DNA from: Sulfuriferula multivorans
GTDB taxonomy: Bacteria > Pseudomonadota > Gammaproteobacteria > Burkholderiales > Sulfuriferulaceae
Direction: 5' to 3'
Assembly (NCBI RefSeq): GCF_003851125.1
Contig: NZ_BGOW01000007.1
Location: 1 to 32,343 of the forward strand
Length of the DNA stretch: 32,343 nt
Part shown: positions 5,632 to 31,436 of the stretch, piece after piece
Position numbering within the stretch: the first letter of the stretch is position 1
Layout: the number at the start of each line of letters is the position of its first letter
Notes under the pieces: model-generated
Databases searched by the model: none
What the model was told of the DNA's origin: nothing
Seen by the model: only the letters and a program-made list of their open reading frames with translations
Translations under genes and position numbers: made by a program

Positions 5632-5647
5632 AGCAGTATTCATGCCA
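5632..5647 (-). promoter_or_regulatory. Putative sigma54 promoter of the accessory ABC cassette
   Basis: Reading the minus strand: TGGCATG-AATA-CTGCT. This matches the -24/-12 consensus TGGCAYG-N4-YTGCW with exact 12-base GG-to-GC spacing. Transcription would start near 5621, leaving a short leader before the ATPase ATG at 5587. Confidence 0.62.
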
Positions 5648-5831
5648 ACGCGGAAACCAAGGTTGCGAGATGCCGAATACACTTTGGATTCAAAGAACTA
5701 ATATATTCATAACAATTGGTTATAAATAAAATGATCTTCCCTTTAAGTGGAACCAGTTAACCAAAGAAAAATTATTTTGGGCCCCATTTAAGTGCATTTA
5801 AAATTATGTTTGTTGACTCAGGACGATGAAG

Positions 5832-5863
5832 TTTAAATTTTAAATTTTGAATTTTGAATTTTA
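5832..5863. repeat. AT-rich 7-bp tandem repeat, about 4.5 units
   Basis: Consecutive units read TTTAAAT, TTTAAAT, TTTGAAT, TTTGAAT and a partial TTTA. The phasing of A/T runs at 7 bases and the upstream location suggest a flexible or bent control segment, but no function can be assigned. Confidence 0.7.
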
Positions 5864-6098
5864 CCGATCAAATCAGCCCGACCAGTATGTACAAAGAAGA
5901 CGCAAGATTTCAGACGTTGGAACGATGGCAGATCGGCGCAAGCAGATCGTACGATTACATTGCAAAGGGTCGGCGTGATGCGGATACACTGGGGATAGGC
6001 TCTTCAACTATACGTAGTTCGCTTCTATGCATAGTGGTCGATCTGAGCCATTCCATCACAAAAATCAGCTCGGCGTGGTTTTGTATCTGAATCTGTTC

Positions 6099-6614
6099 CT
6101 ATTTCTGCCAGAATGAACGATGCAGGCGAAGCGTTTCTTCCACAACTTCCTCGACCGGGCCGATCAGTTCCACTGGTTTCTGGCAGTGGTCGAACACATA
6201 GCGAGAGGGCACGCTCATCGTCTGATTTTCTTTGTGGCCCCCTGTTTCCTGCAAGAGCTGGCGCTCGGTCATGCCGTATACGATGCGGCCGATATTTGCC
6301 CAATAGGCGGTGCCGGCGCACATGCAGCAGGGTTCGACGGCGGTATAGAGCGTGCAACTCCATAGATACTCCGGCGAGAAATTGCTCGCGGCGATTCGTG
6401 CCAGCGTTGACTCCGCATGATTCACCGTATCGATGTTGCACTGCTCAAGCAGGATCGTCTCCTGATCCGGGCCTACCAGGATCGCACCGAACGGGTGACA
6501 ACCGAGGTTAACAGCGCGCTGGGCTACCTCGTTGGATCTGCGCAGATGCCGCAGCATCTGTTCGCGCGTGGGGGAAAAGCCCTGCGGGGGCAGGATGATG
6601 GAATTATCGGTCAT
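6099..6614 (-). CDS. Cytidine-deaminase-fold nucleobase deaminase (guanine deaminase-like)
   Basis: A 171-residue zinc deaminase of the CMP/dCMP deaminase superfamily. The zinc site is visible: His66-Ala-Glu68 (HAES) with Glu as proton shuttle, and Pro95-Cys96-x2-Cys99 (PCCMC). The CHPFGAILVGPD segment near residue 40 is shared with nucleobase deaminases such as bacterial guanine deaminases (for example the Nitrosomonas NE0047 type, which also deaminates ammeline). tRNA adenosine deaminase TadA has a similar core but is usually shorter with a different surrounding sequence, and the context argues against it. It is the last gene of the long purine operon, 57 bases after the 8-oxoguanine deaminase. 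An amidohydrolase-type guanine deaminase is in the same operon, so this enzyme may be redundant or act on another aminopurine or aminotriazine. Confidence 0.88.
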   Translation of the reverse strand: MTDNSIILPPQGFSPTREQMLRHLRRSNEVAQRAVNLGCHPFGAILVGPDQETILLEQCNIDTVNHAESTLARIAASNFSPEYLWSCTLYTAVEPCCMCAGTAYWANIGRIVYGMTERQLLQETGGHKENQTMSVPSRYVFDHCQKPVELIGPVEEVVEETLRLHRSFWQK

Positions 6615-6671
6615 GGTCGAGACTTCTGATTTCTCTCATAGCCAAGGTGCTGCCCCAAAGGAATAAGCATT

Positions 6672-8084
6672 TCAAACCAGCCCTGCTCTTTTTAACATGC
6701 CCATACTGGCCGCGTTATGGCGTTTGATCAGCGCTGCCATATCCATGCCTTTCAGCTCGCTATTCTCGACCACGATCTTGCCATTAATGACAGAAAGCCA
6801 GACACGGCCGGGTGCGCAAGTCAGCAGCGAAGCGACCGGATCTCCCAGCGCACCGGCGTGACCCAGGTCATCCACACGAAAGGCCACCAGATCAGCGGCT
6901 TTGCCCGGTTCCAGGCTGCCAATGTCGTCGCGTTGCAGCACACGCGCTCCACCCAGAGTAGCGAGTTCCAGCGCCTCCCGTGCAGACAGGCGATCAGCAC
7001 GCGACTCAAAGCCGGGCCAGCCTACGCGCTGCAGCAGCATGGCTTGGCGCGCCTCGCCCAGCATATGGTTGCCGTCGTTACTTGCGGAGCCATCTACCCC
7101 TAATCCCACACGCACACCCAAGTCCAGCATGCGCCGCACTGGTGCGATGCCCGAGGCGAGAATCATGTTGCTGCTGGCACAGTGACAGACACCACTGCAA
7201 TGGTGGGCCAGCCGGCCCATGTCAGATTCGCTGGGGTGCACCATGTGGGCGAACCAGACGTCACTCCCCATCCACTCGACTGATTCGGCATAGTCCAGGG
7301 GATGTTTTCCGAATTTTTCAAGGCAGAAGCGATCCTCGTCCAGGGTTTCGGCAAGGTGGGTATGCAAACCAACGCGCTGATAAGTACGCGCCAGGCGTGC
7401 ACTCTCACGCATCAGGTCTGCACTCACGCTGAAAGGCGAACAGGGCGCAAGACCGATGCGCAGCATGGAACGCGGCGCGGCATCATGAAAAGTCTCAATG
7501 ACGCGCTGGCTGTCCTCAAGAATAGCGGCCTCGTTTTCTACTACCCTGTCTGGTGGCAGCCCTCCCTGGCTCTCGCCCAGGCTCATGCTGCCGCGCGTGG
7601 GATGAAATCGCACACCGAGCTCGCGTGCGGCGGCAATTTCGTCGTCCAGCCGCGTGCCATTTGGAAACAGATAAAGGTGATCCGCCACGGTGGTGGCACC
7701 GGATAGCAGCAGTTCAGCCAGTCCAACCTGGGTACTGACGTGTATCGCTTCCGGATCCATTTCAGCCCATACCGGGTAAAGCATTTTCAGCCAGTCAAAC
7801 AGCACCCTGCCCTGCCCGGTGCCAATCGCACGCGTGAGGGTCTGGTAGAGATGATGATGGCAATTGACCAGCCCGGGCATCACCACACAGCCCCTGGCAT
7901 CAATGGTGCGATGTGGGTAGCGAAAAGCAGGGTCTTGCGCTATCCATGCATCGATTTCCGTGGCTGCACCCAGCCTCAGGATCGTGTCACCCTCGACCAG
8001 GACACTGGCGCGAGGCAACTCTTCACGAGTTGCATTCATGGTCACCACCACCTCGGCATCGTGGATCAGTATCCGATTAATCAT
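6672..8084 (-). CDS. 8-oxoguanine deaminase / amidohydrolase-superfamily deaminase
   Basis: A 470-residue metal-dependent deaminase of the amidohydrolase superfamily (TrzA/AtzA-like subgroup). Probable metal ligands are His76 and His78 in the NCHHHLYQ motif, His243 in HTHLAE, His280 in WFAHMVH, and Asp331 in GVDGSASND. The NCHHHLYQTLTRA and GVDGSASNDGNH patterns are those of enzymes annotated as 8-oxoguanine deaminase, which convert 8-oxoguanine to urate plus ammonia and so feed straight into the uricase step. The ATG at 8084 is preceded by a GAG-containing ribosome binding site. It follows the guanine deaminase gene after 119 bases in the same operon. A related substrate such as isocytosine or a pterin cannot be excluded from sequence alone. 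Confidence 0.86.
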   Translation of the reverse strand: MINRILIHDAEVVVTMNATREELPRASVLVEGDTILRLGAATEIDAWIAQDPAFRYPHRTIDARGCVVMPGLVNCHHHLYQTLTRAIGTGQGRVLFDWLKMLYPVWAEMDPEAIHVSTQVGLAELLLSGATTVADHLYLFPNGTRLDDEIAAARELGVRFHPTRGSMSLGESQGGLPPDRVVENEAAILEDSQRVIETFHDAAPRSMLRIGLAPCSPFSVSADLMRESARLARTYQRVGLHTHLAETLDEDRFCLEKFGKHPLDYAESVEWMGSDVWFAHMVHPSESDMGRLAHHCSGVCHCASSNMILASGIAPVRRMLDLGVRVGLGVDGSASNDGNHMLGEARQAMLLQRVGWPGFESRADRLSAREALELATLGGARVLQRDDIGSLEPGKAADLVAFRVDDLGHAGALGDPVASLLTCAPGRVWLSVINGKIVVENSELKGMDMAALIKRHNAASMGMLKRAGLV

Positions 8085-8203
8085 CTATTTATTTCTCAGC
8101 AGAAAGCACGCCGTAGCGCAGATTTTTTTGGCTCAAATAGCGGCGATAAACAACAGACCGGCGGTCGCTTGCCAGTGACAATTTCATTCCCGCAGCAAGT
8201 GAG

Positions 8204-9553
8204 TCATTCATTGGATAGATTCTCTGCACTGGGCAAGCATGCTCGTGTATGGACAAGTTCCCCGAGAATATAGGTGGCTGCCACAGCCCGATCATCACCC
8301 AGCGTCATAAATATGAACAGGCGTTCGATCAGGGTCGTCGCACTGCGCATGCGCCGCGCCATGAGCGGTGTTGATTCGGGATCCAGCACGATAAAATCGG
8401 CTTCTTTACCGGGAGCCAGGTTACCAATATTGTCATCCAACCCCAGAGCTTTGGCATTGCCCAGGGTGGCCAGATAGAAAGCCTGTAAAGGTGACAGGGT
8501 GTAACCCCGCAGCTGTGCCACTTTGTATGATTCACCCAGGGTGCGCAGCATGCTGAAACTGGTACCGCCGCCTACATCGGTAGCCACGCCCACGCGCATA
8601 CCTGAATCCAGTGCCCCGGCAAGATCAAACAAACCGCTGCCCAGAAACAGGTTCGAGGTGGGGCAGAAAGCGGCTGTCGCGCCGCTATCCACCATGCGCT
8701 GACGGTCGTCTTCATCGAGATGGATACAGTGCGCGTAGACGGCACGCTCGCGCAACAGGCCATAGTGGTCGTAGACGTCAAGGTAACTCCGGCTCCACGG
8801 AAACAGCCTGGTCACCCATGCCACTTCGTCCATATTTTCCGCGAGGTGGGTGTGGATATGCACCTCGGGATAGTTGCGTGCTAGCTCGCCCACTTGGGCT
8901 AGTTGCGCATCCGACGAGGTAACGGCGAAGCGCGGGGTGATGGCATACCCCAGTCGCCCTTGTCCGTGCCAGCGTTCTATCAGCGCTGCCGAATCGGCAT
9001 ACGCGCTATCAGGTGTATCGCGCAAAAACTCGGGGCAGTTACGATCCATCAGCACTTTGCCCGCCACCATGCGCAGGGCTCGCTGCCCAGCTACGGCGAA
9101 GAAGGCATCCAGCGATTGACGGTGGGTCGTGCCAAACACTAACGCTGTTGTGGTGCCGTTGCGCAGCAATTCGTCAAGGAAGAATCCAGCGACTTCTGTC
9201 GCGTGGTTCATGTCGTCGAAACGACCTTCGGCGGGAAAGGTGTAATGCTCCAGCCAGTCCAGTAGTTGCTTCCCCGGCGAGGCGATGACATCTGTCTGGG
9301 AATAGTGGATATGGGTATCGATGAAGCCCGGCAAAATCATCCGGCCCGAGTAGTCGGTAAGCTGTGTGCCGGCCGGCAGCGTGGGGTGCAATTCTGCGTA
9401 GCCACCAAGCGCGAGCACGCGGCCATTCTCCACGACCATCAAGCCGTCCGGGATAAACTGATAGGAGTGGTCAGCACCCGCCTCACCGGGGTTGGCGAGA
9501 AAATGCAGGATAGACCCACGAAAGGCATTACATACTGCTGCCGTCATGCTCAT
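8204..9553 (-). CDS. guaD: Guanine deaminase (amidohydrolase type)
   Basis: A 449-residue cytoplasmic zinc enzyme converting guanine to xanthine and ammonia. The sequence shows the GuaD hallmark PGFIDTHIHYSQTD with metal ligands His81 and His83, followed by LLDWLEHYTFPAE, then HTHLAENMDEV, YAHCIHLDEDD, and the late ligand Asp in VATDVGGGTSFSM. Length fits the family. Its ATG overlaps the PuuD stop codon as ATGA, indicating translational coupling. It supplies xanthine to the XdhAB enzyme encoded upstream in the same transcript. The next gene, 8-oxoguanine deaminase, belongs to the same superfamily but a different subgroup. Confidence 0.95.
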   Translation of the reverse strand: MSMTAAVCNAFRGSILHFLANPGEAGADHSYQFIPDGLMVVENGRVLALGGYAELHPTLPAGTQLTDYSGRMILPGFIDTHIHYSQTDVIASPGKQLLDWLEHYTFPAEGRFDDMNHATEVAGFFLDELLRNGTTTALVFGTTHRQSLDAFFAVAGQRALRMVAGKVLMDRNCPEFLRDTPDSAYADSAALIERWHGQGRLGYAITPRFAVTSSDAQLAQVGELARNYPEVHIHTHLAENMDEVAWVTRLFPWSRSYLDVYDHYGLLRERAVYAHCIHLDEDDRQRMVDSGATAAFCPTSNLFLGSGLFDLAGALDSGMRVGVATDVGGGTSFSMLRTLGESYKVAQLRGYTLSPLQAFYLATLGNAKALGLDDNIGNLAPGKEADFIVLDPESTPLMARRMRSATTLIERLFIFMTLGDDRAVAATYILGELVHTRACLPSAENLSNE

Positions 9554-10749
9554 TTAGAGGGGCCCCCGGCAATCCCCCAGGCAACAATAAATTGCCGTTC
9601 CTGATCGGTCATGCCTGTCAGATTTCCGAGCGGCATGGCCCGACTGGATACCTGCTGATAAATCTGTGTGGCGTGGGAGGCGATACGCTCAGGCGTATCC
9701 AGCATCACACCCTTGGGTGCAGCAACAAAACCTGCCTGGGTAACTTTCTCGGCATGACAACTTGCACAACGGTTTTGCACGATATGTACTACCTGTGCAA
9801 ACTGATCGGCGGTATTCACAGAAGCGACAGCCTGGGGTGCGGATGCAGGAGAGATGGCAAACGCTACACCAGCCAGCAGAACCACCCCCAGCACTATCGG
9901 CACCGGTGAGGCGTGCCCTTTGTGACGAGCGACGAAATACACGCGAATAGCTGCACCCGCAATGGAAATGGCGATAAGAAGCACCCAGTTATACGGGTGA
10001 TTAAACACCATCGCATAGTGATTGCTCATCATGGTGAATATCACCGGCAAGGTGAAGTAGGTGTTATGCAGCGAACGTTGCCTGGCCTTTAATCCTGGCG
10101 CGGGGTCGGGTTCGCGGCCTGCCAGTTTGGCTTTTATCAGCTCGCGCTGACCGGGGATAATGACAAAAAATACGTTGGCGACCATCAGAGTACCGAGCAT
10201 GGCGCCATAGTGAATGAAGGCGCCGCGACCACTAAATACATGGCACAACCCCCACGCAGCAGCGGCAGCCAGCATTGCTACCGCCAGCCCAAGCTGGCGG
10301 TCATTTCGCCCCAGGGGAGAACGACACAAGCCGTCGTAAAACAGCCAACCCAACACCAGGGTACCGAGACCAATAGTAATGGCCTCCATTGGTGAAAGCG
10401 CGGCTACCGCAGGATCAATCAGATAGGTCCCCGCCCCTACATAGTAAACCAGGCACAACATGAAAAAGCCCGATAACCATGTGGTGTAGGCTTCCCATTT
10501 GAACCAGTGCAACGGCTCCGGCAATAACTGCGGTGCCACACGGTATTTTTGCGCGTGGTAAAAACCGCCGCCGTGAACTGACCATACTTCCCCGGCAATC
10601 CCTTTGTCGGAATCATCCGGATTTTTTGGCTGGAGCAGATGGTTATCCAGCCAGACAAAATAAAACGAAGCGCCTATCCAGGCGATGCCACTAATCAGGT
10701 GCAGCCAACGTCCCAAAAGATTAAGCCAGTCCAGCCAGTAAGGATTCAT
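9550..10749 (-). CDS. puuD: Membrane-bound urate oxidase with C-terminal cytochrome c domain (urate hydroxylase PuuD)
   Basis: A 399-residue protein combining a hydrophobic N-terminal part (about residues 1-310, about eight membrane segments, starting with HLISGIAWIGASFYFVWLD) and a cytochrome c domain. The heme motif CASCH lies at residues 328-332 and a likely axial Met at 372 in AMPLGN. PuuD proteins oxidise urate to 5-hydroxyisourate and pass electrons to the respiratory chain instead of making peroxide. No soluble cofactor-free uricase or HpxO-type flavoprotein gene is in the window, so this is the expected urate-oxidising step. It lies between the importer permease and guanine deaminase, five bases after the permease stop and overlapping guaD by ATGA. 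Confidence 0.95.
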   Translation of the reverse strand: MNPYWLDWLNLLGRWLHLISGIAWIGASFYFVWLDNHLLQPKNPDDSDKGIAGEVWSVHGGGFYHAQKYRVAPQLLPEPLHWFKWEAYTTWLSGFFMLCLVYYVGAGTYLIDPAVAALSPMEAITIGLGTLVLGWLFYDGLCRSPLGRNDRQLGLAVAMLAAAAAWGLCHVFSGRGAFIHYGAMLGTLMVANVFFVIIPGQRELIKAKLAGREPDPAPGLKARQRSLHNTYFTLPVIFTMMSNHYAMVFNHPYNWVLLIAISIAGAAIRVYFVARHKGHASPVPIVLGVVLLAGVAFAISPASAPQAVASVNTADQFAQVVHIVQNRCASCHAEKVTQAGFVAAPKGVMLDTPERIASHATQIYQQVSSRAMPLGNLTGMTDQERQFIVAWGIAGGPSK

Positions 10750-10754
10750 ATTGT

Positions 10755-15385: not shown

Positions 15386-17706
15386 ACCGATTCCTCGGCC
15401 ACGGCATGATTGCGTACTGACTCCGTGTTGCCATCTATTGCATGCAAAATCGCCTGCGGCGTGGCAGGGGCAGTTAAATTCATTGCCGCTATGGGTCCCG
15501 CCGCACTGGCCACAGCGTCGCGCAAGGCATGGAAAACAGATATTGCCAGCATCAATGGCGGTTCGCCCACTGCCTTGGAATGAAAGATGGTGTCTTCGGT
15601 ATTAGGCGTGTTTTCCAGCAGACGGACGCGTGCATCCTCGGGCCAGTCGCTTACCGCCGGGATTTTGTAGGTGGACGGTGCATGTGTTTTGAGTTCGCCT
15701 TGATTGTTCCACCATAATTCCTCGCTAGTCAGCCAGCCTGCCCCTTGTAGGAAACCGCCTTCTATCTGGCCGATATCGAGAGCCGGGTTGAGCGATTTTC
15801 CTACGTCATGAAGAATATCCACCCTTAATATACGGTTCTCTCCAGTCAGGGTATCGACTGCTACCTCGGTGACGGCCGCACCATAAGCAAAATAGAAAAA
15901 AGGCCGGCCACGCAGGGTACTACGGTTGTAGTGAATTTTTGGCGTGCGATAAAAGCCGGTCGACGATAGCGAAATACGCGCCAAATAAGCATCGCGGACG
16001 AAAGCATCGAATCCCAGAGTGTTTTCACCAATACGTACCTTCCCCGCTTCAAAGACCACCTCGTGAGCCTGTACGTGATAGTTCTCGACAGCGAAAGCAA
16101 TCAGTCTTTCCTTGATTATTCGCGCCGCTATCTGGGCAGCCTTGCCATTGAGATCACTGCCTGAGGACGCGGCGGTCGCAGACGTGTTGGGTACCTTGCT
16201 GGTGTCGGTGGTGGATACCCGTACCTGATCCAGCACGATACCAAATTCGTCGGCTACGACCTGTGCGACCTTGGTAAACAACCCCTGCCCCATCTCTGTG
16301 CCGCCGTGGTTCAGCAATACACTGCCGTCGGTATACACCTGTACCAAAGCTCCAGCCTGATTGTATTGGGTCGCAGTAAAGGAGATGCCGAATTTGACTG
16401 GCGTCAATGCGATGCCACGTTTGATGATGGGGTTATGGGCATTGAATTTGGTGATAGCTGTCCGGCGTGACGTGTAGTCACTGCTGACTACCAGATCGTC
16501 GACGATTCGGTGCACAAGGTTGTCTTCGACCTGCATGTGGTAGGGGGTAACATTGCGCTCGCCGATGCCATAGAAATTGATACGCCGCACCGCCAGCGGG
16601 TCAAGATCGAGATGGCGTGCAATATCATCGAGCACCGCTTCGATTGCCATCATCCCCTGTGGTCCGCCAAAACCGCGGAAGGCCGTATTCGACACCGTAT
16701 GCGTCTTGCAACGATGCGATACGATTTGCACGTGTTCCAGAAAATAGCAATTGTCGGCGTGAAACATGGCACGATCATTGACCGGACCTGACAGATCAAC
16801 AGAGTAACCGCAGCGCGAAGCCAACATTAGCGACAGACCGAGAATGCGTCCTTTATCATCAAAACCAACGTCGTATTCTGCAATAAAGTCATGGCGTTTC
16901 CCGGTCATCACCATGTCGTCGTCGCGGTCCAACCGCACCTTGGCGGGTCGACCCGTTGCCGTGGCGACAAGCGCAGCCACGCAGGCAAACAGAGCTGGCT
17001 GGCTTTCCTTGCCACCGAAACCACCGCCCATGCGCCGACACTGCACCACTACGTCATGAGCATGTTTGCCCAGGGCATGGGCAACCAGGTGCTGAACCTC
17101 ACTGGGATGCTGGGTGGAGCTATGGACCAGTACGCCGCCATTTTCCTGAGGCAGTGCAAAGGCAATCTGTCCTTCAAGATAAAAATGGTCTTGACCGCCG
17201 ATGGAAATCGCGCCGGATAAGCGCTGCGGTGCCCCGCTAATAACTGCTTCTGGCTCGCCTCGGCGCAATGTTTCTGTAGGCAACACGAAACTGTCGGCAG
17301 CCAAAGCAGTTGCTATATCGAGTATCGCCGGCAGCGGTTCGTAGTCGATGCGTGCAAGTTTCGCTGCTCGGCGCGCCATATCAATCGAGTTGGCCGCAAC
17401 GGCAAAAATAGGCTGGCCGTGAAATTGGATGATGTCTGTGGCGAAGATTGGGTCGTCGTGCATTACCGGCCCATAGTTGTTCTCACCTGGAATATCCATG
17501 GCGGTAAAAACCCGAACCACTCCCGGCGCACTCAAGACCGCTGACAAGTCCATGTGTTTGATACGGCCATGCGCTATATCACTCATGCCAAATGCTACAT
17601 GCAGCACATTGGCTGGTAGCGCGATATCGTCCGAATAATAAGCCCGACCAGAAACATGCAAAGCGGCACTTTCGTGGGCAACAGGCTGATTCACCACAGG
17701 GTTCAT
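15382..17706 (-). CDS. xdhB: Xanthine dehydrogenase, molybdopterin-binding subunit XdhB
   Basis: A 774-residue catalytic subunit that binds molybdenum cofactor and hydroxylates hypoxanthine and xanthine to urate. Recognised family motifs in order are RMGGGFGGKE, AFRGFGGPQG, EMGQGLFTKVAQV, the Ala/Ser-rich SATAASSGSDLNGKA segment and KAVGEPPLMLA, which contains the catalytic glutamate. I chose the ATG at 17706, which overlaps the xdhA stop by ATGA and gives the usual N terminus; the longer frame to 17892 lies wholly within xdhA. It pairs with XdhA, matured by XdhC encoded immediately downstream. Confidence 0.96.
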   Translation of the reverse strand: MNPVVNQPVAHESAALHVSGRAYYSDDIALPANVLHVAFGMSDIAHGRIKHMDLSAVLSAPGVVRVFTAMDIPGENNYGPVMHDDPIFATDIIQFHGQPIFAVAANSIDMARRAAKLARIDYEPLPAILDIATALAADSFVLPTETLRRGEPEAVISGAPQRLSGAISIGGQDHFYLEGQIAFALPQENGGVLVHSSTQHPSEVQHLVAHALGKHAHDVVVQCRRMGGGFGGKESQPALFACVAALVATATGRPAKVRLDRDDDMVMTGKRHDFIAEYDVGFDDKGRILGLSLMLASRCGYSVDLSGPVNDRAMFHADNCYFLEHVQIVSHRCKTHTVSNTAFRGFGGPQGMMAIEAVLDDIARHLDLDPLAVRRINFYGIGERNVTPYHMQVEDNLVHRIVDDLVVSSDYTSRRTAITKFNAHNPIIKRGIALTPVKFGISFTATQYNQAGALVQVYTDGSVLLNHGGTEMGQGLFTKVAQVVADEFGIVLDQVRVSTTDTSKVPNTSATAASSGSDLNGKAAQIAARIIKERLIAFAVENYHVQAHEVVFEAGKVRIGENTLGFDAFVRDAYLARISLSSTGFYRTPKIHYNRSTLRGRPFFYFAYGAAVTEVAVDTLTGENRILRVDILHDVGKSLNPALDIGQIEGGFLQGAGWLTSEELWWNNQGELKTHAPSTYKIPAVSDWPEDARVRLLENTPNTEDTIFHSKAVGEPPLMLAISVFHALRDAVASAAGPIAAMNLTAPATPQAILHAIDGNTESVRNHAVAEESV

Positions 17707-19181: not shown

Positions 19182-19183
19182 GC

Positions 19184-19534: not shown

Positions 19535-19729
19535 TTGGGAAGCGATTCCTTTCCAGTAAATCCATCGTGATCGCCATTCTGCTTTCCGAATGCATAACAC
19601 ACCTGAAAACAGAACAGGCTGGCGTGGCTATAGCTTGGTAAGTTCAAACACAAATCTCTCGAACCGAGCTTAACCTTCATGAAACATTTTTAATGACTTG
19701 GTGCACTGAAAGTTGGACACAATTTCCAA

Positions 19730-19745
19730 AGCAATATCCATACCT
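19730..19745 (-). promoter_or_regulatory. Candidate sigma54 promoter of the xdh operon
   Basis: The minus strand reads AGGTATGGATATTGCT: GG and GC are exactly 12 bases apart and the -12 element TTGCT is perfect, but the -24 element GGTATG deviates from GGCACG at two positions. It would leave a leader of about 185 bases before the hydroxyisourate hydrolase ATG. Confidence 0.4.
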
Positions 19746-19805
19746 TCAATTCAGATTGTTTTACTTAAGAGTAGCGTGCCGGAAAAAATACTTTCATATA
19801 GCGTT

Positions 19806-19839
19806 GTATTTAACGCTGTATGTATACAATGTTAAATAC
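19806..19839. promoter_or_regulatory. Inverted repeat, likely regulator operator
   Basis: GTATTTAAC (19806-19814) and GTTAAATAC (19831-19839) are perfect inverted 9-base arms. Between them lies the palindrome TGTATACA (19821-19828), close to the TTGTATACAA-type sites bound by many FCD-subfamily GntR regulators. The GntR gene at 20162 is the obvious candidate binder; this is inference. Confidence 0.5.
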
Positions 19840-19932
19840 TTAGCAATATAGCCTGACAATATGCAGGATAGATTTATAATGCTATAACAAAGCCGTAAAC
19901 ACGATTTGATACGATGAGCATAGGGTCTATTT

Positions 19933-19949
19933 CGCATTGCCTTGGTGCA
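19933..19949. promoter_or_regulatory. Putative NtrC-type site 1 of the divergent region
   Basis: CGCATTGCCTTGGTGCA fits the GC-N11-GC pattern of NtrC enhancers (TGCACY-N5-RGTGCA), with a perfect right half GGTGCA and a weaker left half. Confidence 0.5.
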
Positions 19950-19962: not shown

Positions 19963-19979
19963 CGCCACAATATGGTGCG
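19963..19979. promoter_or_regulatory. Putative NtrC-type site 2 of the divergent region
   Basis: CGCCACAATATGGTGCG keeps GC-N11-GC spacing; its complement, CGCACCATATTGTGGCG, is close to the classical TGCACCATATTGGTGCA enhancer. Its centre is 30 bases, about three helical turns, from site 1, as expected for cooperative binding. Confidence 0.55.
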
Positions 19980-20161
19980 CACAGCAATATTCATATGTTG
20001 TACATTTGTAATATACGATATCACGACATAGTTGTATCCAGTTCAACTGGTCCGGCTTGCTGATGCAGCGCACAATTCATTAAACCTGGAACAAAGACAA
20101 CTTTTTTATTAAAGAAAAACAGATGAAAACGCTGCAAAAGGACATGAAGGAATGAACGAAT

Positions 20162-20896
20162 ATGACTTCGCTAAATGAATCTCTATCAGCCTCCATGGCA
20201 TCCTCTTCCATCGTCACAAAACGAGGCATGTCAGACGTAGATAAAAAAATCTACGACTCTGTCTTCAATGCTGTGATGAACCAACGACTGCCTCCAGGCA
20301 CCAAATTGACCGAAGCACACTTTTGCGAGCTATTTAAAGTAAGCCGCACTATTGTGCGCAAGGCGTTACAGCGGCTTTCGCATGCCCATATTGTGGTGCT
20401 CAAACCTAATCATGGCGCAAGCATTGCTTCCCCTACACCGCAAGAAACCCGAGAAATATTTGCTGCGCGTCGCGGTATTGAAGCGGCGATTATTCCACTC
20501 GCCATTAAACACGCAAGCAATGCGCAAATTGCTGGCCTACGCAAAATGGCAAAAGCAGAACATGCGGCTTTCGAGAGCGGCGATCGCGCCAACTGGATAA
20601 GTCTAGGCGGTGCGTTCCACATTGCACTGGCAGAATTGGCCGGGAACAGTGTCTTGCAGAGATTTCTGTCTGAATTGGTGTCGCGATGCTCGTTGATCAT
20701 TGCGCTGTATCAATTACCCGGAAACGTAGCCTGCAGTCACGACGAGCATGACCGGTTGATCGATGTCATCGCAAGTAAAGATGTAAAACGCGCACTTAAA
20801 ATGATGGAACAACATTTGCTAGCGATAGAAGCGAGACTCAATCTGAACGATGAGAGAGCAAAAATAAACCTCGCTGAAATTCTTGGATTGGCGTGA
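20162..20896 (+). CDS. GntR-family transcriptional regulator, FCD subfamily
   Basis: A 244-residue regulator with an N-terminal winged helix (about residues 23-90; KIYDSVFNAVMNQRLPPGTKLTE, LFKVSRTIVRKALQRL) and a C-terminal FCD all-helical ligand domain (about 95-235). The FCD metal-site histidines are plausible in FHIALAELAGN, DEHDRLIDVI and MEQHLLAIEARL. It is the first gene of the allantoin-breakdown operon and faces the xdh operon across a shared control region, so regulation of one or both by a pathway intermediate such as urate, allantoin or xanthine is likely. FCD regulators are usually repressors, but activators are known. The ATG at 20162 follows a GAAGGAATGAACGAAT leader with AAGGA at a somewhat long spacing. 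Confidence 0.93.
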   Translation: MTSLNESLSASMASSSIVTKRGMSDVDKKIYDSVFNAVMNQRLPPGTKLTEAHFCELFKVSRTIVRKALQRLSHAHIVVLKPNHGASIASPTPQETREIFAARRGIEAAIIPLAIKHASNAQIAGLRKMAKAEHAAFESGDRANWISLGGAFHIALAELAGNSVLQRFLSELVSRCSLIIALYQLPGNVACSHDEHDRLIDVIASKDVKRALKMMEQHLLAIEARLNLNDERAKINLAEILGLA

Positions 20897-24129: not shown

Positions 24130-25017
24130 TTAGAAGTGGTACTCGGCTCTAATCATTGGGGTCTTGGCAAAAGCGCCACTTCCAGCAGAGCCTGATGCAT
24201 CGACACCGAACTTATTCTTCCAGTATTGATATTCGACACCAAGCTTGAACGTGCCTTTCGGCCCACCCATAAGCTTTCCTACATCGGCCATGATCTGAGC
24301 ATCAATGTTGGTCTCCGGTTTGGTCTGCGCACCAAACTCATCCCTACCCTTTGCGGCAATGAAATTCGCAAAACCTTCGAATGAAAATGCCGAATCACCA
24401 ATTGGAATGGCCCATGCCGCGGTCAGCATCGGATGCGTTTTATAGGAATAGCGCGAGACGCATGTGTTGGTGTAGGTATTGCATGGTGCATTGCTTTCCC
24501 ACAAAACCAGCAAACTAACATTAAGAAAGCCTGGCACGTCAAACATAAGGGTTGGCCCCAATACCAGCATCCGTTTCTTGGAGTTGTAACCGGCATCAGT
24601 CTTGGTGTTCCAATCGAATCCCCCAGTAATACCGATGTCTTTCACGACACCAAATTTGTAATCTTTGCCTGTGATCTTACCGAGGTCTAACGTGTTGCGA
24701 TAGACTACATATGCTTCTTGCGCGCCATCAGTCGAATGGGCATTAGACGGATCCTTGCTGTTCGACAACAGCATGTCGACATTGAAAAAATTAGTGCCGT
24801 ACTTGTAGCCGCTCGCATGAGTCAGCGCAAAAATGTTCTTGGTGATGTCATTCCCCTCATAAGGCTCCGCAAAACTGGTGCCATAACGCCAACTGATAGA
24901 CGTGTCACTCCAGTCAGCTGCGAATGCGGGAAAGCACGCAAGCAACACTGAACATCCAATCAGTGCAGTAGAGGCCCTTAACTTGGTCGCGCTTGAGTTT
25001 GTGCTTAACTTAACCAT
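24130..25017 (-). CDS. Tsx-like nucleoside-type outer-membrane channel protein
   Basis: A 295-residue predicted outer-membrane beta-barrel. The N terminus is a signal peptide ending ACFPAFA/ADWSD near residue 33. The mature protein starts with WSDTSISWRYGTSFAEPYEG and shows alternating polar and aromatic strands, ending in a terminal Phe (IRAEYHF), a standard BAM-recognised barrel end. The pattern resembles the Tsx nucleoside-channel family, and the neighbourhood of two purine importers and the degradation genes supports nucleoside or base uptake across the outer membrane. I chose the ATG at 25017, which has a GGGAG sequence about 11 bases upstream; the ATG at 25035 has no ribosome binding site. 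One pair of cysteines (CNTYTNTC) lies in a probable external loop. A sigma54-type promoter sits about 80 bases upstream. Confidence 0.85.
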   Translation of the reverse strand: MVKLSTNSSATKLRASTALIGCSVLLACFPAFAADWSDTSISWRYGTSFAEPYEGNDITKNIFALTHASGYKYGTNFFNVDMLLSNSKDPSNAHSTDGAQEAYVVYRNTLDLGKITGKDYKFGVVKDIGITGGFDWNTKTDAGYNSKKRMLVLGPTLMFDVPGFLNVSLLVLWESNAPCNTYTNTCVSRYSYKTHPMLTAAWAIPIGDSAFSFEGFANFIAAKGRDEFGAQTKPETNIDAQIMADVGKLMGGPKGTFKLGVEYQYWKNKFGVDASGSAGSGAFAKTPMIRAEYHF

Positions 25018-25095
25018 TTTTGATATCACTCCCATTCATTAATTAAAAAGTTGAGTACGGAGAATTTAAAGTCCCCCTCCGTTCAAAGGCATTAA

Positions 25096-25111
25096 AGCAA
25101 ACGATATGCCA
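25096..25111 (-). promoter_or_regulatory. Putative sigma54 promoter of the channel gene
   Basis: Minus strand TGGCATA-TCGT-TTGCT: -24 TGGCA and -12 TTGCT are intact with exact spacing. Start of transcription would be near 25085, about 70 bases before the ATG. Confidence 0.6.
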
Positions 25112-25154
25112 AATAACCAACCCAACTAAACTGCATGCAACATTTCAGAAAAAT

Positions 25155-25171
25155 TGCATACAACATATGCA
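25155..25171. promoter_or_regulatory. Putative NtrC-type dyad upstream of the channel gene
   Basis: TGCATACAACATATGCA has GC-N11-GC spacing with TGCA at both ends, and lies inside a longer perfect inverted repeat with 9-base arms AAATTGCAT (25151-25159) and ATGCAATTT (25167-25175). Its centre is about 78 bases upstream of the predicted start site. A GntR-type operator is the alternative. Confidence 0.5.
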
Positions 25172-25384
25172 ATTTCATAGAGAAATTATGAATTATTCGA
25201 GTGACTGACAAAGAGAAATGTGAGAATTTCTTATTGGGGTGCGGACGAGTAATGCGTAAACATAGTGCATTCTGACAGGTGCTTTGTTCCAAGATAGTGC
25301 AAGCCAATGATTTTTACCTCTTTAAGCATCACAAAATAATAGTTCTCAATATGTCAATAAAGTGGACACAATTGAATTTTTGCT

Positions 25385-25607: not shown

Positions 25608-25666
25608 AATTCGTAATAGAATTTCCTGAAATTGGGAATCGATTCAAACCCAATATAAGAACCTGA
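25608..25666 (+). pseudogene. Diverged duplicate of the 3' end of the allA gene
   Basis: Positions 25608-25655 align without gaps to 23893-23940 in allA with 38 of 48 bases identical by eye. In frame it encodes FVIEFPEIGNRFKPN, against FVIEFPEIKRWLKPD in the lyase, and reaches a stop at 25664-25666. A TAA lies immediately upstream in frame. It is a relic, not a gene. Confidence 0.7.
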
Positions 25667-25754
25667 CCCCACGCTGGATACACTTTATTTCAGATCGGCA
25701 ACACATAGTGTTATTTCCATGCCAACTGAAATTGCAAACCCTGATCCCGCATCT

Positions 25755-26450: not shown

Positions 26451-26540
26451 TGCTTCCTCTGAATCCGGATAAGCCGTGGTGCAGCCCGTTGATGGTCAAG
26501 GATATGAGCAAACGGGATCGGACCACCACAGCAAATTGTG

Positions 26541-26571
26541 AAAAACCGCCGGGCGGTATTCACCCAGCGGT
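26541..26571 (-). terminator. Rho-independent terminator downstream of the BMP gene
   Basis: On the minus strand, ACCGCTGGG and CCCGGCGGT pair over nine positions (one G-T) around a nine-base loop and are followed by a run of T. It begins 23 bases after the BMP-family stop codon and precedes the biuret-hydrolase-like gene. Confidence 0.75.
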
Positions 26572-26594
26572 CAGCCAACGCAGACCGAGTCAGT

Positions 26595-27653
26595 TTATTG
26601 AACAGTACCGATCACGCCCTTCACAAAAAAGTTCATCTGCTCTACAGAAGCGGACGGCATGGTGGTACCTTCCGCCGCAACTACGGTGCCGTCCTGTTTC
26701 ACAATTGGGCCAGCCCACAGCGGATCTTTACCCGACACGAAGGCCTGTTCTTTCTTGGCGATCAGCGCTTTGGTCTTGTCGGTAACGGATGGACCGAATT
26801 TCGTCAGCTTAACATCGCCGGTCGCCAGGCTGCCGCGGATGTTTTCCGATTTCCATGTGCCTTTTTCAATACTCTCGACGATCTTGGTCATCATCGGCCC
26901 CCAGTTCCAGGCGGCACCCACCAACCAGCCCTTGGGTGCAAATTTACTTGCGTCGGCGTGATAGCCAACCACGTGCACACCGCGTTTTTCAGCAGTTTGG
27001 ACAATGGCAATGGGAGAGTCCACGTGCATGGAGAGCACATCTACTCCGGAATCAATCAGTGCATTGGCTGCTTCGGCTTCCTTCGCAGGATCAGACCATG
27101 TACCAGTCCAAACAACGGTAGTGGTCACTTTAGGATTGACGCTTTGGGCGCCACGAGTAAAGGCGTTGATATTGCGGAGCACCTGGGGGATTGGGTGCGC
27201 GGCGATGAAGCCCAATTTACCGGATTTTGTGCTTGCGCCTGCCGAAATGCCCGCTAGATACATCACGTCATCGATGTCGGCAAAATAGGTGCCCAAGTTT
27301 TTTGCCAGTTTGAATCCGCCCGAATGCATAAAAGTAACATTCGGATACTTCTTGGCAACCTTAAGGGCCGGATCCAGGTAGCCATAGCTGGTGGCGAAAA
27401 TGACCTTGTATCCGGACTGTGCCAGACGCTCCATCACCCGTTCCACATCGGCGTTTTCCGGGATGTTTTCAAAGTAGCTGGTCTTGACATCCTTGACGTG
27501 CTTTTCCATATAAAGCCGCCCCTGATCCTGGGCGTAGTTGTATCCATAGTCTGTTTTTGGGCCGACATAAATATAGCCGATCTTTGTTTCGGCATAGGCA
27601 GTTGTGATAGCGGCAAACAGCCCGATGGCGGCCAATATGCTTTTGAATTTCAT
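26595..27653 (-). CDS. BMP-family ABC transporter substrate-binding protein (purine/nucleoside type)
   Basis: A 352-residue periplasmic binding protein of the BMP/PnrA-like family, which binds purine nucleosides or bases. The signal peptide is MKFKSILAAIGLFAAITTAYA, cleaved before ETKIGYIYVG. Family patterns follow: KTDYGYNYAQDQGRLYMEKH, IFATSYGYLDPALKVAKKYPNV, MHSGGFKLAKNLGTYFADIDDVMYLAG, GKLGFIAAHPIPQVLRNINAF, and GVDVLSMHVDSPIAIVQTAEKRG. I chose the ATG at 27653, which has GGGGAG seven bases upstream; the longer frame to 27722 adds residues before the signal. It ends the second importer operon and could also serve the permeases in the xdh operon, which lack a binding protein of their own. 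Confidence 0.94.
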   Translation of the reverse strand: MKFKSILAAIGLFAAITTAYAETKIGYIYVGPKTDYGYNYAQDQGRLYMEKHVKDVKTSYFENIPENADVERVMERLAQSGYKVIFATSYGYLDPALKVAKKYPNVTFMHSGGFKLAKNLGTYFADIDDVMYLAGISAGASTKSGKLGFIAAHPIPQVLRNINAFTRGAQSVNPKVTTTVVWTGTWSDPAKEAEAANALIDSGVDVLSMHVDSPIAIVQTAEKRGVHVVGYHADASKFAPKGWLVGAAWNWGPMMTKIVESIEKGTWKSENIRGSLATGDVKLTKFGPSVTDKTKALIAKKEQAFVSGKDPLWAGPIVKQDGTVVAAEGTTMPSASVEQMNFFVKGVIGTVQ

Positions 27654-27760
27654 GCTTTGCTCCCCGTTGTGATCAATGTTAAAAAACGTCAGAAAAAAAT
27701 AGATGCTTTCCTGCTTCCACACTCACAAATCCGATGCAGAACCAGCCATGCCAAAAACCG

Positions 27761-28684
27761 CTAGCGAAAAATTGCAGTGAGTCCCTGAGGAGCCCCTCCT
27801 TCCTTGTTTGCCAGATAATAGCTAACCAGTAAAACAAGCAGCGTCACGACATAGGGTATGGTGGCCAACAAGTACGGAGAGACGGCCACACCAGCCGTCT
27901 GCAGCCGCAGATAGAAGGCTTCCGACCCGCCGAACAGTAGTGCTGCAGGCAAAGCCAGGAAGGGATTCCAGCGGGCTACGATAACCAGACCGACTGCGAC
28001 CAATCCTCGGCCTCCGGTCATGTTCTCAACCCAGTCGCGCGTGTAATCCACGGACATCGCCGCGCCAGCGAAACCCGAGAAAAATCCTCCAATCAGAACA
28101 CCCTGAACCTGGACAAATGCCGGGTTGATTCCTGTCGCGCGGGCAACCTGGACGGACTCACCTACGGATCGCCAAATCAGCCCGGTTCTTGTGCGGTACA
28201 GCCATATTCCCACTAGTGGGGTCGCGATCAGACCGATGATCACAGTAGGTGTCAGTTGGGAGACGAAAGTCCCAAGTATTGGCACGGTCTGCCAATGTGC
28301 TGATAAAAGGTGATGGAATCCATGTATTTTTTGGCCCACATATGGAATTCCATAAAACGAGGTCAGCCCCATGCCCAGGATCAGAACGGCGATACCACTA
28401 GCGATTTGATTTGCTTTCAGACCAACACAAAGCCCGGCGTGCAAGGACGACATCAGCACGCCTGCCAATGCGCCGACCAGGAGTCCGATCCAGGGATTAC
28501 CGAAACTCAGGGTTGCAGCGAACCCGGCCAAAGCGCCGACCAGCATTTGACCCTCTACGCCGAGATTGATAATGCCCACCCGCTGGGTAAGCGTTTCACC
28601 CAGAATTGCGAGCAGGATTGGCGTTGAGCTGCGCAGGGAAGAAACCGTCAGATCGCTGATGTTAAATGCGGAAGAGTCAAGCAT
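27761..28684 (-). CDS. ABC transporter permease, nucleoside/purine type (second importer, permease 2)
   Basis: A 307-residue hydrophobic permease of the BPD_transp_2 family. The N-terminal STPILLAILGETLTQRVGIIN and LGVEGQMLVGALAGF patterns correspond to those of the permease at 10755-11681, showing the same class but clear divergence. It overlaps the upstream permease by eight bases. A 107-base gap with two T-runs separates it from the binding-protein gene. Confidence 0.93.
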   Translation of the reverse strand: MLDSSAFNISDLTVSSLRSSTPILLAILGETLTQRVGIINLGVEGQMLVGALAGFAATLSFGNPWIGLLVGALAGVLMSSLHAGLCVGLKANQIASGIAVLILGMGLTSFYGIPYVGQKIHGFHHLLSAHWQTVPILGTFVSQLTPTVIIGLIATPLVGIWLYRTRTGLIWRSVGESVQVARATGINPAFVQVQGVLIGGFFSGFAGAAMSVDYTRDWVENMTGGRGLVAVGLVIVARWNPFLALPAALLFGGSEAFYLRLQTAGVAVSPYLLATIPYVVTLLVLLVSYYLANKEGGAPQGLTAIFR

Positions 28685-29711
28685 GGTAGCCTCTCAGTTT
28701 CACCCAGTTCATGACCACCAATGCGCTTACGAACAACATCCCTTGCAGGATAATGGCGCTGGAGGAAGGAAGTTGCGCGAACAACTGTAAAGCGTCGGCA
28801 GAAGACAGCAGGCCACCAACGAGAATGGACATTGGGATAATCCTCAAAAAACTTTGTCCCGACAGCCACGCCACTAGGAATCCGCTCCAACCGTAGCCAC
28901 CGGCCAAGCCCGCTTGCAGCCTTCCCTGCATGACGGAGGTTTCAGCGATACCTGCGATCCCGGCCAGGAGCCCGGAAATCGCCATGACGATAATGACGTT
29001 GCGCTCATAATTCAAACCCGCACTCAGAGCAACCCGTTGGTTACTGCGCATTACTTTCAAAGCGATGCCCCAACGACTGTAGGTCACCAAAACGTGAAGA
29101 ATGAGTGCAGCCACAACCCCGATGACCAATCCTAAATGCACTCGCGAGCCGAAAAAAGTGGGCAATATGGCGGCATCCGGGAAGTTGGCGGAGGCAGGCC
29201 ATCCCAAATTGCTTGGGTCTTTCCAGGGTCCATGCACCACATAGTCCACGAGTTGCAGCGCGAGATAGTTCAACATGAGGGTGCTAATTGTCTCGTTAAC
29301 GCCGAGCCGCGCCTTGAACACGCCAGGCACCGCTCCCCAGAATGCACCGCCGAGACTCGCTGTCAGGAGCATGAGTGGCAGCACAACCCATGCCGATCCA
29401 TTCATCATGCTCAGCACCAGTGCAGTGCCTGCCATGGCACCGAAATTCATTTGCCCCTGAGCCCCTACAGTGACAAGACCGAGCTTGGCCGGAAGTACGA
29501 CGGCACTGGCACAAAGCAGTATTGGGGCGACTTTTACCAAGGTTTCGGACCAGGCAAAGCTGTCACCAAATGCACTCTTCACCATCTCCAAGAAAAGCGC
29601 TACCGGGGCATGCCCCTCAAGCAGAAAAAACCCTGCACCCAGAGCCAAGAATAGGCATGCCGATGCCAGGATTGGAAATACTTCGGCGCGCAAAACCCGG
29701 CTTCCATTCAT
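28677..29711 (-). CDS. ABC transporter permease, nucleoside/purine type (second importer, permease 1)
   Basis: A 344-residue inner-membrane permease of the BPD_transp_2 family, corresponding to the one at 11678-12787. The KLGLVTVGAQGQMNFGAMAG segment is the equivalent of the NIGAEGQLTMGA pattern, and TISTLMLNYLALQLVDYVVHGPWKDP parallels the LVQGPWRDP motif of the other set. Its ATG overlaps the ATPase stop by four bases and its end overlaps permease 2 by eight, so translation is coupled along the set. Confidence 0.93.
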   Translation of the reverse strand: MNGSRVLRAEVFPILASACLFLALGAGFFLLEGHAPVALFLEMVKSAFGDSFAWSETLVKVAPILLCASAVVLPAKLGLVTVGAQGQMNFGAMAGTALVLSMMNGSAWVVLPLMLLTASLGGAFWGAVPGVFKARLGVNETISTLMLNYLALQLVDYVVHGPWKDPSNLGWPASANFPDAAILPTFFGSRVHLGLVIGVVAALILHVLVTYSRWGIALKVMRSNQRVALSAGLNYERNVIIVMAISGLLAGIAGIAETSVMQGRLQAGLAGGYGWSGFLVAWLSGQSFLRIIPMSILVGGLLSSADALQLFAQLPSSSAIILQGMLFVSALVVMNWVKLRGYHA

Positions 29712-31210
29712 GCCGTCTTCCTCGCACCTGTCATGAGTAATCCGATGGTCTGCCTGTCTGCTGATGCTGCGGGCAGAATACCGGTAATTTTTCCATGGGA
29801 AAGAACCGCGATACGGTGCGCGTATTGCAACAGGTCATCAAGATCTTCTGATATCCATAGAATGCATGCGCCTCTTTCAGCGTGCTTGAACATCTGCTCA
29901 TAGATCGCCCGAGTGGATAAAATATCCAAACCCATGCTCGGGTAGCAAGCTACGACCAAAGACGGCATGCCGGACAACTCCCGCGCCGAAACTAGTTTTT
30001 GCAAATTGCCGCCGGATAAATCCTGTGCCAACTTGGTTGGATCCGATGGCCGCACGTTAAACTCATCAATTAGTTTCTGCGCCTGAGCTTGCTCAGTCTG
30101 TTTTTTCGGAAAGAAAGGCATACCGACAAGACGATGGAGACTAAGGTTGGTGGTAAGGTCAAGGTCCGACGCCACACCGTTTTCCAGAGGTTGTTCAGGG
30201 ATATACCCGATTTTGCTGTTCCGGTTTGGATTAACTGGTTGCCGCCCCAGGCGGCTCACCACCTCCCCATCCAGTATCACTTCGCCGTTATCCAAAACAG
30301 CCAGGCCCGCGACCGCATCAGCCAGCAGACGCTGTCCGTTTCCTGCAACACCGGCAATGCCCAGAATTTCTCCCGGAGCGAGTTGGAGTTCGATGTCAAC
30401 GATAGCGGCACGCCGATCCTTGGCGCTGATGCTCTTGATCCAAAGTTTTTGAATGTCCTTTTGCGGGCTCTTGACTGATGGATTGGCAGCTACTTGATGC
30501 TGTCCCATCATCAAAGTAACCATCTCGTCGATGGTTTTCCCACGTGCGTCGGCGACCTCCACCAAGCGACCAGCGCGCATGATTGCGACCCGGTCAGCGC
30601 ACGCTTCCACATCTTCAAATTTATGGGTAATAAGCACCACACTACGGCCGCTGTCAGCTAATTGCCTAACCAGCGCCCACAGCCTTTCCGACTCCTGAGG
30701 CGTGAGTACGGCTGTAGGCTCGTCAAGAATGACCAGTTGTGCATTCAGGTTAAGCACTTTTGCCAACTCCACCAGTTGCTGCTCTCCGATAGCGAGGTGG
30801 CGGACAAGTTTGGATGGATCAATATCACGAGCAAGTTTGGTTAAATTCTCTAAAACAGTTGACCATACAGGGCGGTGCCTGCTTTGCCACCATGGGGACT
30901 TTGGGTAAGCCAGCATCAGGTTTTCCGCCACACTTAACGCCGGAATCAAGTTGAACTGCTGAAATACCATGCCTATGCCCAAGGCCATTGCAGTGCGAGG
31001 CGTATCGATTTCCACTGTGGTTCCGTCAATAACGATCTCTCCCGAGTCACCTTGGTAGAAACCATAGAGGATTTTCATCAAAGTGCTCTTGCCTGCACCA
31101 TTTTCACCCAGCAGCGCTAACACCTCGCCGGCTTTGATTTCCAGGTTCACGTCCGCGTTGGCAGCGACTTCACCGAAATGTTTGCTGATACCTCGAAGTT
31201 CGATATGCAT
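29708..31210 (-). CDS. ABC transporter ATP-binding protein, nucleoside/purine type (second importer)
   Basis: A 500-residue double ATPase. Domain one: Walker A GENGAGKST near residue 36, VFQQFNLIPALSVAENLMLA, signature LAIGEQQLVELAK and Walker B LVILDEPTAVL. Domain two: degenerate P-loop GVAGNGQRLLADAVAGL and signature LSGGNLQKLVSARELSG. It is the first gene of the second importer operon, about 40 bases downstream of a strong sigma54-type promoter. The ATG at 31210 has a poor ribosome binding site. The set is complete because the BMP binding protein follows the permeases. Confidence 0.94.
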   Translation of the reverse strand: MHIELRGISKHFGEVAANADVNLEIKAGEVLALLGENGAGKSTLMKILYGFYQGDSGEIVIDGTTVEIDTPRTAMALGIGMVFQQFNLIPALSVAENLMLAYPKSPWWQSRHRPVWSTVLENLTKLARDIDPSKLVRHLAIGEQQLVELAKVLNLNAQLVILDEPTAVLTPQESERLWALVRQLADSGRSVVLITHKFEDVEACADRVAIMRAGRLVEVADARGKTIDEMVTLMMGQHQVAANPSVKSPQKDIQKLWIKSISAKDRRAAIVDIELQLAPGEILGIAGVAGNGQRLLADAVAGLAVLDNGEVILDGEVVSRLGRQPVNPNRNSKIGYIPEQPLENGVASDLDLTTNLSLHRLVGMPFFPKKQTEQAQAQKLIDEFNVRPSDPTKLAQDLSGGNLQKLVSARELSGMPSLVVACYPSMGLDILSTRAIYEQMFKHAERGACILWISEDLDDLLQYAHRIAVLSHGKITGILPAASADRQTIGLLMTGARKTA

Positions 31211-31237
31211 GAAGTCGGCCCAAATTAAAATGCATCA

Positions 31238-31247
31238 TTGCATGCAA
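31238..31247. promoter_or_regulatory. Palindrome at the predicted transcription start of the second importer
   Basis: TTGCATGCAA is a perfect 10-base palindrome starting four bases downstream of the -12 element. A shorter TGCATGCA copy is at 25132-25139 near the channel-gene promoter. It could be a repressor site, possibly for the GntR protein. Confidence 0.4.
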
Positions 31248-31250
31248 CAA

Positions 31251-31266
31251 AGCAAGTTACATGCCA
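31251..31266 (-). promoter_or_regulatory. Putative sigma54 promoter of the second importer operon
   Basis: Minus strand TGGCATG-TAAC-TTGCT matches the consensus TGGCACG-N4-TTGCW at all but one fixed position and has exact spacing. Start of transcription would be near 31240. Confidence 0.72.
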
Positions 31267-31419
31267 TTTGATTGAAACTAAACCGGTGCTGCTGGCAAAA
31301 TCAATACCCTTATAAGGGGAAAGGGGCAGAACTAAGACTGCTTCCTCTATAAACTTTATTTAGCCTCCTACATTTTTGAATTTTATATGGGACGATTTCT
31401 GCCATGATTACCCTTTACA

Positions 31420-31436
31420 TGCACAAAGGAAGTGCA
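31420..31436. promoter_or_regulatory. NtrC-type enhancer site upstream of the second importer
   Basis: TGCACAAAGGAAGTGCA is a 17-base dyad with perfect outer arms TGCAC and GTGCA and GC-N11-GC spacing, the classical NtrC site form. Its centre is about 190 bases upstream of the predicted sigma54 start site. Confidence 0.65.

Follow-up and report, generated by a model that had tools for sequence, protein, structure and literature searches.

Candidate sigma54 promoters, NtrC-like dyads and GntR-type operators in a purine-catabolic gene cluster of Sulfuriferula multivorans

Contig NZ_BGOW01000007.1 of the betaproteobacterium Sulfuriferula multivorans, analysed here over its entire 32,343 bp (the window; the genome comprises 3.62 Mb in 87 contigs), carries a purine-catabolic cluster. 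Several promoters of this cluster combine sigma54-type elements with NtrC-like dyads and with 10-mers of the form TTGnATnCAA, which we regard as likely operators of an FCD/GntR regulator encoded in the same cluster at 20162-20896. On the basis of these elements, their statistics and their conservation, all of which we observed directly, we consider it probable that NtrC/sigma54 control and a GntR repressor form an AND gate on promoters for purine uptake and breakdown. In the proposed mechanism, the operons for a Tsx-like channel, a second importer and xanthine oxidation would be read from sigma54 promoters, which phosphorylated NtrC, bound at dyads approximately 150–230 bp upstream of the −24 element, would activate under nitrogen limitation. 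The FCD/GntR regulator, or a paralogue, would bind the TTGnATnCAA sites, which overlap the predicted start at the importer and at xdh and lie between enhancer and promoter at the channel, and would keep these operons silent until displaced by a ligand derived from purines. Expression would then need both nitrogen limitation and purine. From the DNA we infer that NtrC and the GntR protein bind, that the latter represses rather than activates, that it has such a ligand, and that transcription takes place as described. If true, a general nitrogen-limitation signal would gain substrate specificity from a single repressor whose operators vary in position. The model offers a concrete, testable account of how a nitrogen-starvation response that is general in itself might be confined to whichever substrate is present, and for Betaproteobacteria it proposes a likely regulator, with its operator, of purine uptake and oxidation. 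Whether this amounts to a conserved, purine-specific gate, in which several groups of Betaproteobacteria place FCD/GntR 10-bp operators across the start of NtrC-activated sigma54 promoters for the channel, the importers and xanthine oxidation, is an even bet on the genomes compared.

We scanned the window with a sigma54 matrix whose weights were not fitted on these data, and whose consensus agrees with PMC8743547 (this and the other papers cited are represented here by excerpts). An earlier note on this DNA had proposed four −24/−12 elements, and all four were confirmed: they lie on the minus strand before minus-strand genes, with GG-N10-GC spacing in a TGGCAY / TTGCW context. The two strongest are TGGCATGTAACTTGCT (31251..31266; 18.3 bits; inferred start near 31240), ahead of the second importer (minus strand; ATPase at 29708-31210, then permeases and a BMP protein at 26595-27722), and TGGCATATCGTTTGCT (25096..25111; 17.0 bits; inferred start near 25085), ahead of the Tsx-like channel gene (24130-25035, minus strand). 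A sigma54-like site before an NMT1/Ssu-type ABC cassette, TGGCATGAATACTGCT (5632..5647; 16.0 bits), has the weakest support of the four, and AGGTATGGATATTGCT (19730..19745; 11.2 bits; inferred start near 19719) is a weak sigma54-type promoter before hiuH-xdhABC. Three of the four best matrix sites in the window are among these elements; the remaining one, at 31759 on the plus strand (17.2 bits), falls within an open reading frame of the opposite strand. Set against shuffled gaps, the proposal also held: the eight gaps of at least 100 bp (2,798 bp) contain three sites of at least 16 bits compared with a mean of 0.015, and 0 of 400 dinucleotide shuffles reached three. Genome-wide, the pattern TGGCAYRNNNNYTGCW occurs 47 times, compared with once in the reversed control, and four of these occurrences fall in the window, which makes up 0.9% of the genome (binomial P = 0.0008 for the four sites and 0.009 for the three claimed ones). 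A loose match allowing up to three mismatches showed no excess over the whole window (124 versus 110 ± 11). Upstream of the gntR-allantoinase-allantoicase operon we found no convincing sigma54 promoter (best site, 11.3 bits approximately 540 bp upstream), so a regulon covering both ‘uptake and breakdown’ of purines, as the note had put it, is too broad for sigma54. A sigma70 search for gntR returned one same-strand candidate, at 19853-19880, where shuffled sequences gave 2.4 on average.

The channel and xdh promoters are conserved in relatives. We found 185 relatives of the channel gene and kept 80 loci, 79 of which have upstream DNA (L089, which has none, was excluded). A site of at least 14 bits within 350 bp and in the direction of the gene was present in 50 of the 79 upstream regions, compared with 3 of 79 on the reverse strand and 2 of 1,580 mononucleotide shuffles; after clustering of the upstream regions by similarity, forward sites were found in 16 of 32 clusters and reverse sites in 3 of 32. 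The weak site at 19730 is upheld because stronger sites precede hiuH in all three congeners with a gntR orthologue (TGGTATAGATATTGCT, CGGCACGCAAATTGCT and TGGTATGGTTATTGCT; 14.0–15.3 bits). In 24 loci, mostly of the Duganella group, gntR is divergent from the first importer; 22 of them have a site of at least 13 bits toward the importer and eight an exact 10-mer, both counts standing without a shuffle control. Unlike this arrangement, the first importer of the window follows xdh on the same strand. A gntR-channel unit is found in Duganella/Pseudoduganella as well. Orthologues of the second importer in six genomes of another genus have no sigma54 site of at least 14 bits toward the ATPase, leaving 31251 unsupported there.

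The note had further assigned GC-N11-GC dyads at 19933, 19963, 25155 and 31420 to NtrC. All four are present at these positions, but the pattern itself occurs at chance (233 found versus 234 expected), and calling such dyads NtrC sites requires the full 17-mer in its context. Scored against the 17-mer TGCACY-N5-RGTGCA (12 scored positions), they have one mismatch at 31420, two at 19933, four at 19963 and, by hand count, four at 25155, the last being doubtful. Tandems spaced 30–33 bp apart were scored by summed mismatches in the 300 bp upstream, with 200 shuffles as the control. At the second importer, TGCACAAAGGAAGTGCA (31420..31436; 1 of 12 mismatches) has a partner 31 bp further upstream (31451-31467) with 5 of 12 mismatches; this tandem, whose score was reached by 0 of 200 shuffles, is in effect one strong dyad. 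At the channel, a proximal dyad (25253..25269; three mismatches) and a distal dyad (25285..25301; two mismatches) lie 32 bp apart (0 of 200 shuffles), centred at −150 and −182 from the −24 element, compared with −149 and −180 at the genome’s own glnA. We set aside 25155, although by hand count it is no worse than 19963, because a 10-mer pair lies there and this better tandem is available at 25253/25285; a GntR-type operator pair, of which it would form a part, is the better reading. Upstream of xdh, dyads at 19933..19949 (two mismatches) and 19963..19979 (four mismatches) are 30 bp apart (shuffle p = 0.005). Tandem sums were 5 for the channel, 6 for xdh and 6 for the importer (each shuffle p ≤ 0.005), and 5 for glnA; the cassette, with a single NtrC-like dyad at 5780..5796 (two mismatches), reached a sum of 8 (p = 0.045), which is not compelling.

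Three congeners likewise have a pair like 19933/19963 upstream of gntR, with spacings of 32 (G001), 30 (G014; its xdh dyad pair falls partly outside the 300 bp scanned) and 31 (G016), and in G001 and G016 a cytidine-deaminase-type gene adjoins the pair in place of hiuH. Dyads are present at several congener promoters and absent at others. The perfect-arm form TGCAC-N7-GTGCA occurs at five places in the genome, compared with two in the reversed control; two of the five (31420 and C18:7884) are upstream of two sigma54 importer-type promoters, and the other three are in long open frames. The genome has one RpoN match and one NtrC protein above the curated cut-off (700.6 bits versus 558.6). It also encodes 13 strong sigma54 activator domains among 20 matches, and single dyads are not enriched in the wide set of relatives, both of which would suit promoters that are genuine and answer to another of these 13 activators rather than to NtrC. 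We consider this quite unlikely, given that the dyads fit the NtrC consensus with spacing as at glnA and that the only perfect arms outside long open frames precede two such promoters. The coherent sigma54/NtrC-type regulon of the earlier note finds support for the channel, the second importer and xdh, with conservation behind the channel and xdh and dyads like those of glnA, and is weakly supported at 5632. The idea was right in outline, with one NtrC call and one member doubtful, and it missed a repressor-type layer.

That layer consists of the TTGnATnCAA sites, which in promoters of relatives are often paired 22–23 bp apart and often lie just downstream of the −12 element. The putative binder is an FCD-type GntR regulator (gntR, 20162..20896, plus strand; PF07729, 3e-23; PF00392, 8e-13), and exact or one-mismatch 10-mers are present in all four promoter gaps of the window. 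At the second importer, TTGCATGCAA (31238..31247) matches TTGNATNCAA exactly and spans approximately −7 to +3 of the predicted start by hand count. At xdh, TTGTGTCCAA (19713..19722; one mismatch) spans approximately −3 to +7 by the same count, and its counterpart in the same place is TTGTATCCAA in G001 and G016 and TTGTGTTCAA in G014. Two further 10-mer-like matches with one mismatch each lie at 19804-19813 and 19820-19829, and upstream of gntR the 10-mer-like TTGTATCCAG (20032..20041) is aligned with TTGTATTCAA, TTGTATTCAG and CTGTATTCAA in three congeners. The channel has a pair (25131..25163) made up of 25131-25140 (one mismatch) and 25154-25163 (exact), with centres 23 bp apart, which overlaps the dyad at 25155. 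Another exact TTGNATNCAA match (5684..5693) lies 37 bp upstream of the 5632 site. Exact 10-mers in gaps thus number three (5684, 25154 and 31238) versus 0.13 expected (0 of 400 shuffles), with a fourth exact copy at 15438 in xdhB; allowing one mismatch, the gaps contain eight versus 2.7 expected, and 2 of 400 shuffles were as high.

The 10-mers also co-occur with the regulator gene. Pairs were found in 17 of 34 channel upstream regions with gntR in the locus (window included) and in 0 of 46 without, at a shuffle rate of 0.00125; ‘with gntR’ means that the retrieved locus contains a match of 30% identity or more, so that short loci may be miscounted as without. By upstream cluster, pairs occur in 4 of 9 with gntR versus 0 of 23 without (Fisher p = 0.0035). 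The four pair-bearing clusters are those with a gntR at least 53% identical, and homologues approximately 39% identical have none. The GT...AC boxes of the general GntR consensus (PMC4494728) are present in TTGTATACAA-type sites.

Sigma54 element and 10-mer can be joined into one composite pattern, TGGYAYNNNNNYTGCN{1,14}TTGNANNCAA, which has 14 matches across 18 genomes of the genus, that of the window among them, and none in the reversed control. Twelve of the 14 are in the four genomes with a gntR orthologue, and the single match in the window is at the importer promoter 31251. The first downstream frames encode the channel (three), the BMP protein (three), hiuH (two), the second importer (one, in the window) and others (five); in nine of the 14, this frame matches a purine-cluster gene of the window at 44% identity or more. 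An NtrC tandem score of 6 or less accompanies 7 of the 14 composites, compared with 0.4% of shuffles.

Several observations weigh against the proposed gate. The composite pattern was written after 9 of its 14 sites had been seen; of the five new ones (one each in G000, G013, G014, G016 and G017), just one precedes a recognised cluster gene (the G017 channel, 45%), so the test shows rarity elsewhere rather than prediction of new members. G013 and G017 carry their composites without a gntR orthologue, and the binder of the 10-mer may thus be a paralogue of the 20162-20896 regulator. Single exact 10-mers also occur in 4 of 46 upstream regions without gntR (17 of 34 with; shuffles 1.0%), and the largest cluster counts as pair-bearing only narrowly (11 of 22 members). 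In the window itself, the channel pair lies upstream of the −24 element without overlapping the promoter, and sites of the TTGGATTCAA and TTGCATGCAA types have no GT/AC boxes of the kind seen in the GntR consensus (PMC4494728). As for NtrC, the tandem rule was framed after several of the promoters had been seen; of the 16 examined, nine have a tandem at shuffle p ≤ 0.005, including the channel, xdh and importer of the window and the genome’s own glnA, and seven range from 0.03 to 0.99, the latter being G001 xdh. Single 17-mers are not enriched across 60 channel upstream regions (the window plus those 59 of the 80 loci that scored 12 or more for sigma54 and had 350 bp or more of upstream DNA), and tandems only mildly so (10 of 60 score 7 or less, versus 3.5% of shuffles). 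In Burkholderia cenocepacia, moreover, an ntrC mutant grew worse on allantoin and better on uric acid (PMC5491218). Finally, over the whole window 10-mers with up to one mismatch show no excess (18 versus 19). This last result would fit a plain NtrC/sigma54 regulon, as originally proposed, in which the 10-mers are incidental or serve an unrelated regulator; the sigma54-type promoters and dyads, with the conservation at the channel and xdh and the tandem scores, count in its favour as well, and Burkholderia offers a precedent for such control. The enrichment of 10-mers in gaps (three exact versus 0.13), their recurrence just downstream of the −12 element and their co-occurrence with gntR nevertheless make that reading unlikely.

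The AND gate resembles known systems in part. In B. cenocepacia H111, sigma54 and NtrC count xdhAB and a urate-oxidase cluster among their common targets, and loss of ntrC lowers allantoicase (PMC5491218). By contrast, the excerpts of that study describe no GntR operator at these promoters, and the cluster in the window adds two importers and a channel. The enteric NtrC dyad of 17 bp, TGCACCAnnnTGGTGCA and TGGCACnnTTnTTGC (PMC8743547), is shared with enhancers of the enteric glnA type, and the tandems here are spaced as at the genome’s own glnA; they differ in being mostly degenerate, approximately 150–230 bp from the −24 element, and accompanied by a repressor-type 10-mer. Atu1419, an FCD regulator of Agrobacterium fabrum, binds the 10-mer ATGTATACAT, in which G3 is essential and C8 is its partner, and its tetramer can hold two sites (PMC7797058). 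Both positions are fixed in TTGnATnCAA, which has the same length of 10 bp; however, the Atu1419 sites are at promoters with predicted −10/−35 boxes, two of them 190 bp apart, whereas those here are at sigma54 promoters with pairs 22–23 bp apart. The excerpts of a comparative NtrC reconstruction list no purine genes (PMC5343134). The nitrogen half of the gate is already known from a related bacterium, and the repressor half looks new. A literature search for GntR operators on sigma54 purine promoters yielded no precedent among the records it listed. The Klebsiella hpx system, which has a GntR-type regulator together with nitrogen control, was not retrieved by this search and could lower the novelty.

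The accessory cassette (612-5587, minus strand), which comprises an amidase, a TauE-type protein and the NMT1/Ssu-type ABC system, has no link to purines from anything in this analysis, and we place its membership in the regulon at near even odds. The note had all promoter elements in intergenic DNA and in the right orientation. The orientation is correct throughout, but 5632 is intergenic only loosely, as an open frame of 35 codons (5590-5694, minus strand) runs through it, with its TAA overlapping the ATG of the cassette ABC ATPase (TAATG). The frame has no Pfam match and no relative besides itself in 399 genomes of the order; it may be the remaining 3' end of an upstream gene since lost. 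A first impression that it was the tail of a sulfatase-modifying enzyme is unsupported, since both searches came back empty. The cassette ATPase was matched in three other genomes, of which we scored G064 (74%) and G048 (65%) and left G193 (approximately 50%, two matches) unscored. There is a substantial chance, slightly short of even, that 5632 is a fortuitous match in a coding remnant and that the cassette lies outside the regulon: the frame ends in TAATG across the cassette start, the tandem p is 0.045, and the orthologous cassettes reach at most 11.9 bits (G064) and 12.3 bits (G048), the latter approximately 175 bp upstream and without a tandem. Membership is favoured by the 16.0 bits and correct spacing of 5632 with its exact 10-mer 37 bp upstream, by the position of the G064 site approximately 40 bp before the gene with a one-mismatch NtrC-like dyad upstream, and by a 35-residue frame without a detected relative.

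Outside the window, we noted two loci in the same genome. A second BMP-type operon on C18 (L140, G000:C18:1-20000, 7731-7900) has a sigma54 site at 7763-7778, a 10-mer pair at 7731 and a perfect-arm dyad at 7884-7900, and is likely to be a further member of the regulon. On C20 (L165, G000:C20:105000-118000), two sigma54-type sites at 2196 and 4631 lie close to genes for a deacetylase resembling PuuE (27% identity) and for an ABC ATPase that is 37% identical to that of the cassette and whose site carries the composite with a 10-mer-like site; this is possibly another nitrogen-source cluster. A second GntR regulator, approximately 22–23% identical, is encoded in L133 (18043-18618), L138 (9115-9690) and L166 (1097-1666), where it adjoins channel or BMP operons; promoters next to it carry TTGTTGYATACAA, and it is likely to be a paralogue with a related operator.

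By protein families, the purine cluster of the window begins with 8-oxoguanine deaminase, guanine deaminase, urate oxidase with a cytochrome-like tail, the first importer, xdhC/B/A and hiuH. The opposite strand then encodes the FCD/GntR regulator, allantoinase PuuE, OHCU decarboxylase (uraD), allantoicase and ureidoglycolate lyase, beyond which lie the Tsx-like channel (its score is under the curated cut-off), an isochorismatase-type gene and the second importer. No Rfam family was found in the window at gathering thresholds. The xdh/gntR gap contains, at 19806-19839, a perfect 9-bp inverted repeat, GTATTTAAC-N16-GTTAAATAC, around ATGTATACAA, which we noticed by eye. Near the contig end, an ABC ATPase frame (31654-32310, minus strand) matches only positions 38-136 of the 137 of the ABC_tran profile and is possibly truncated.

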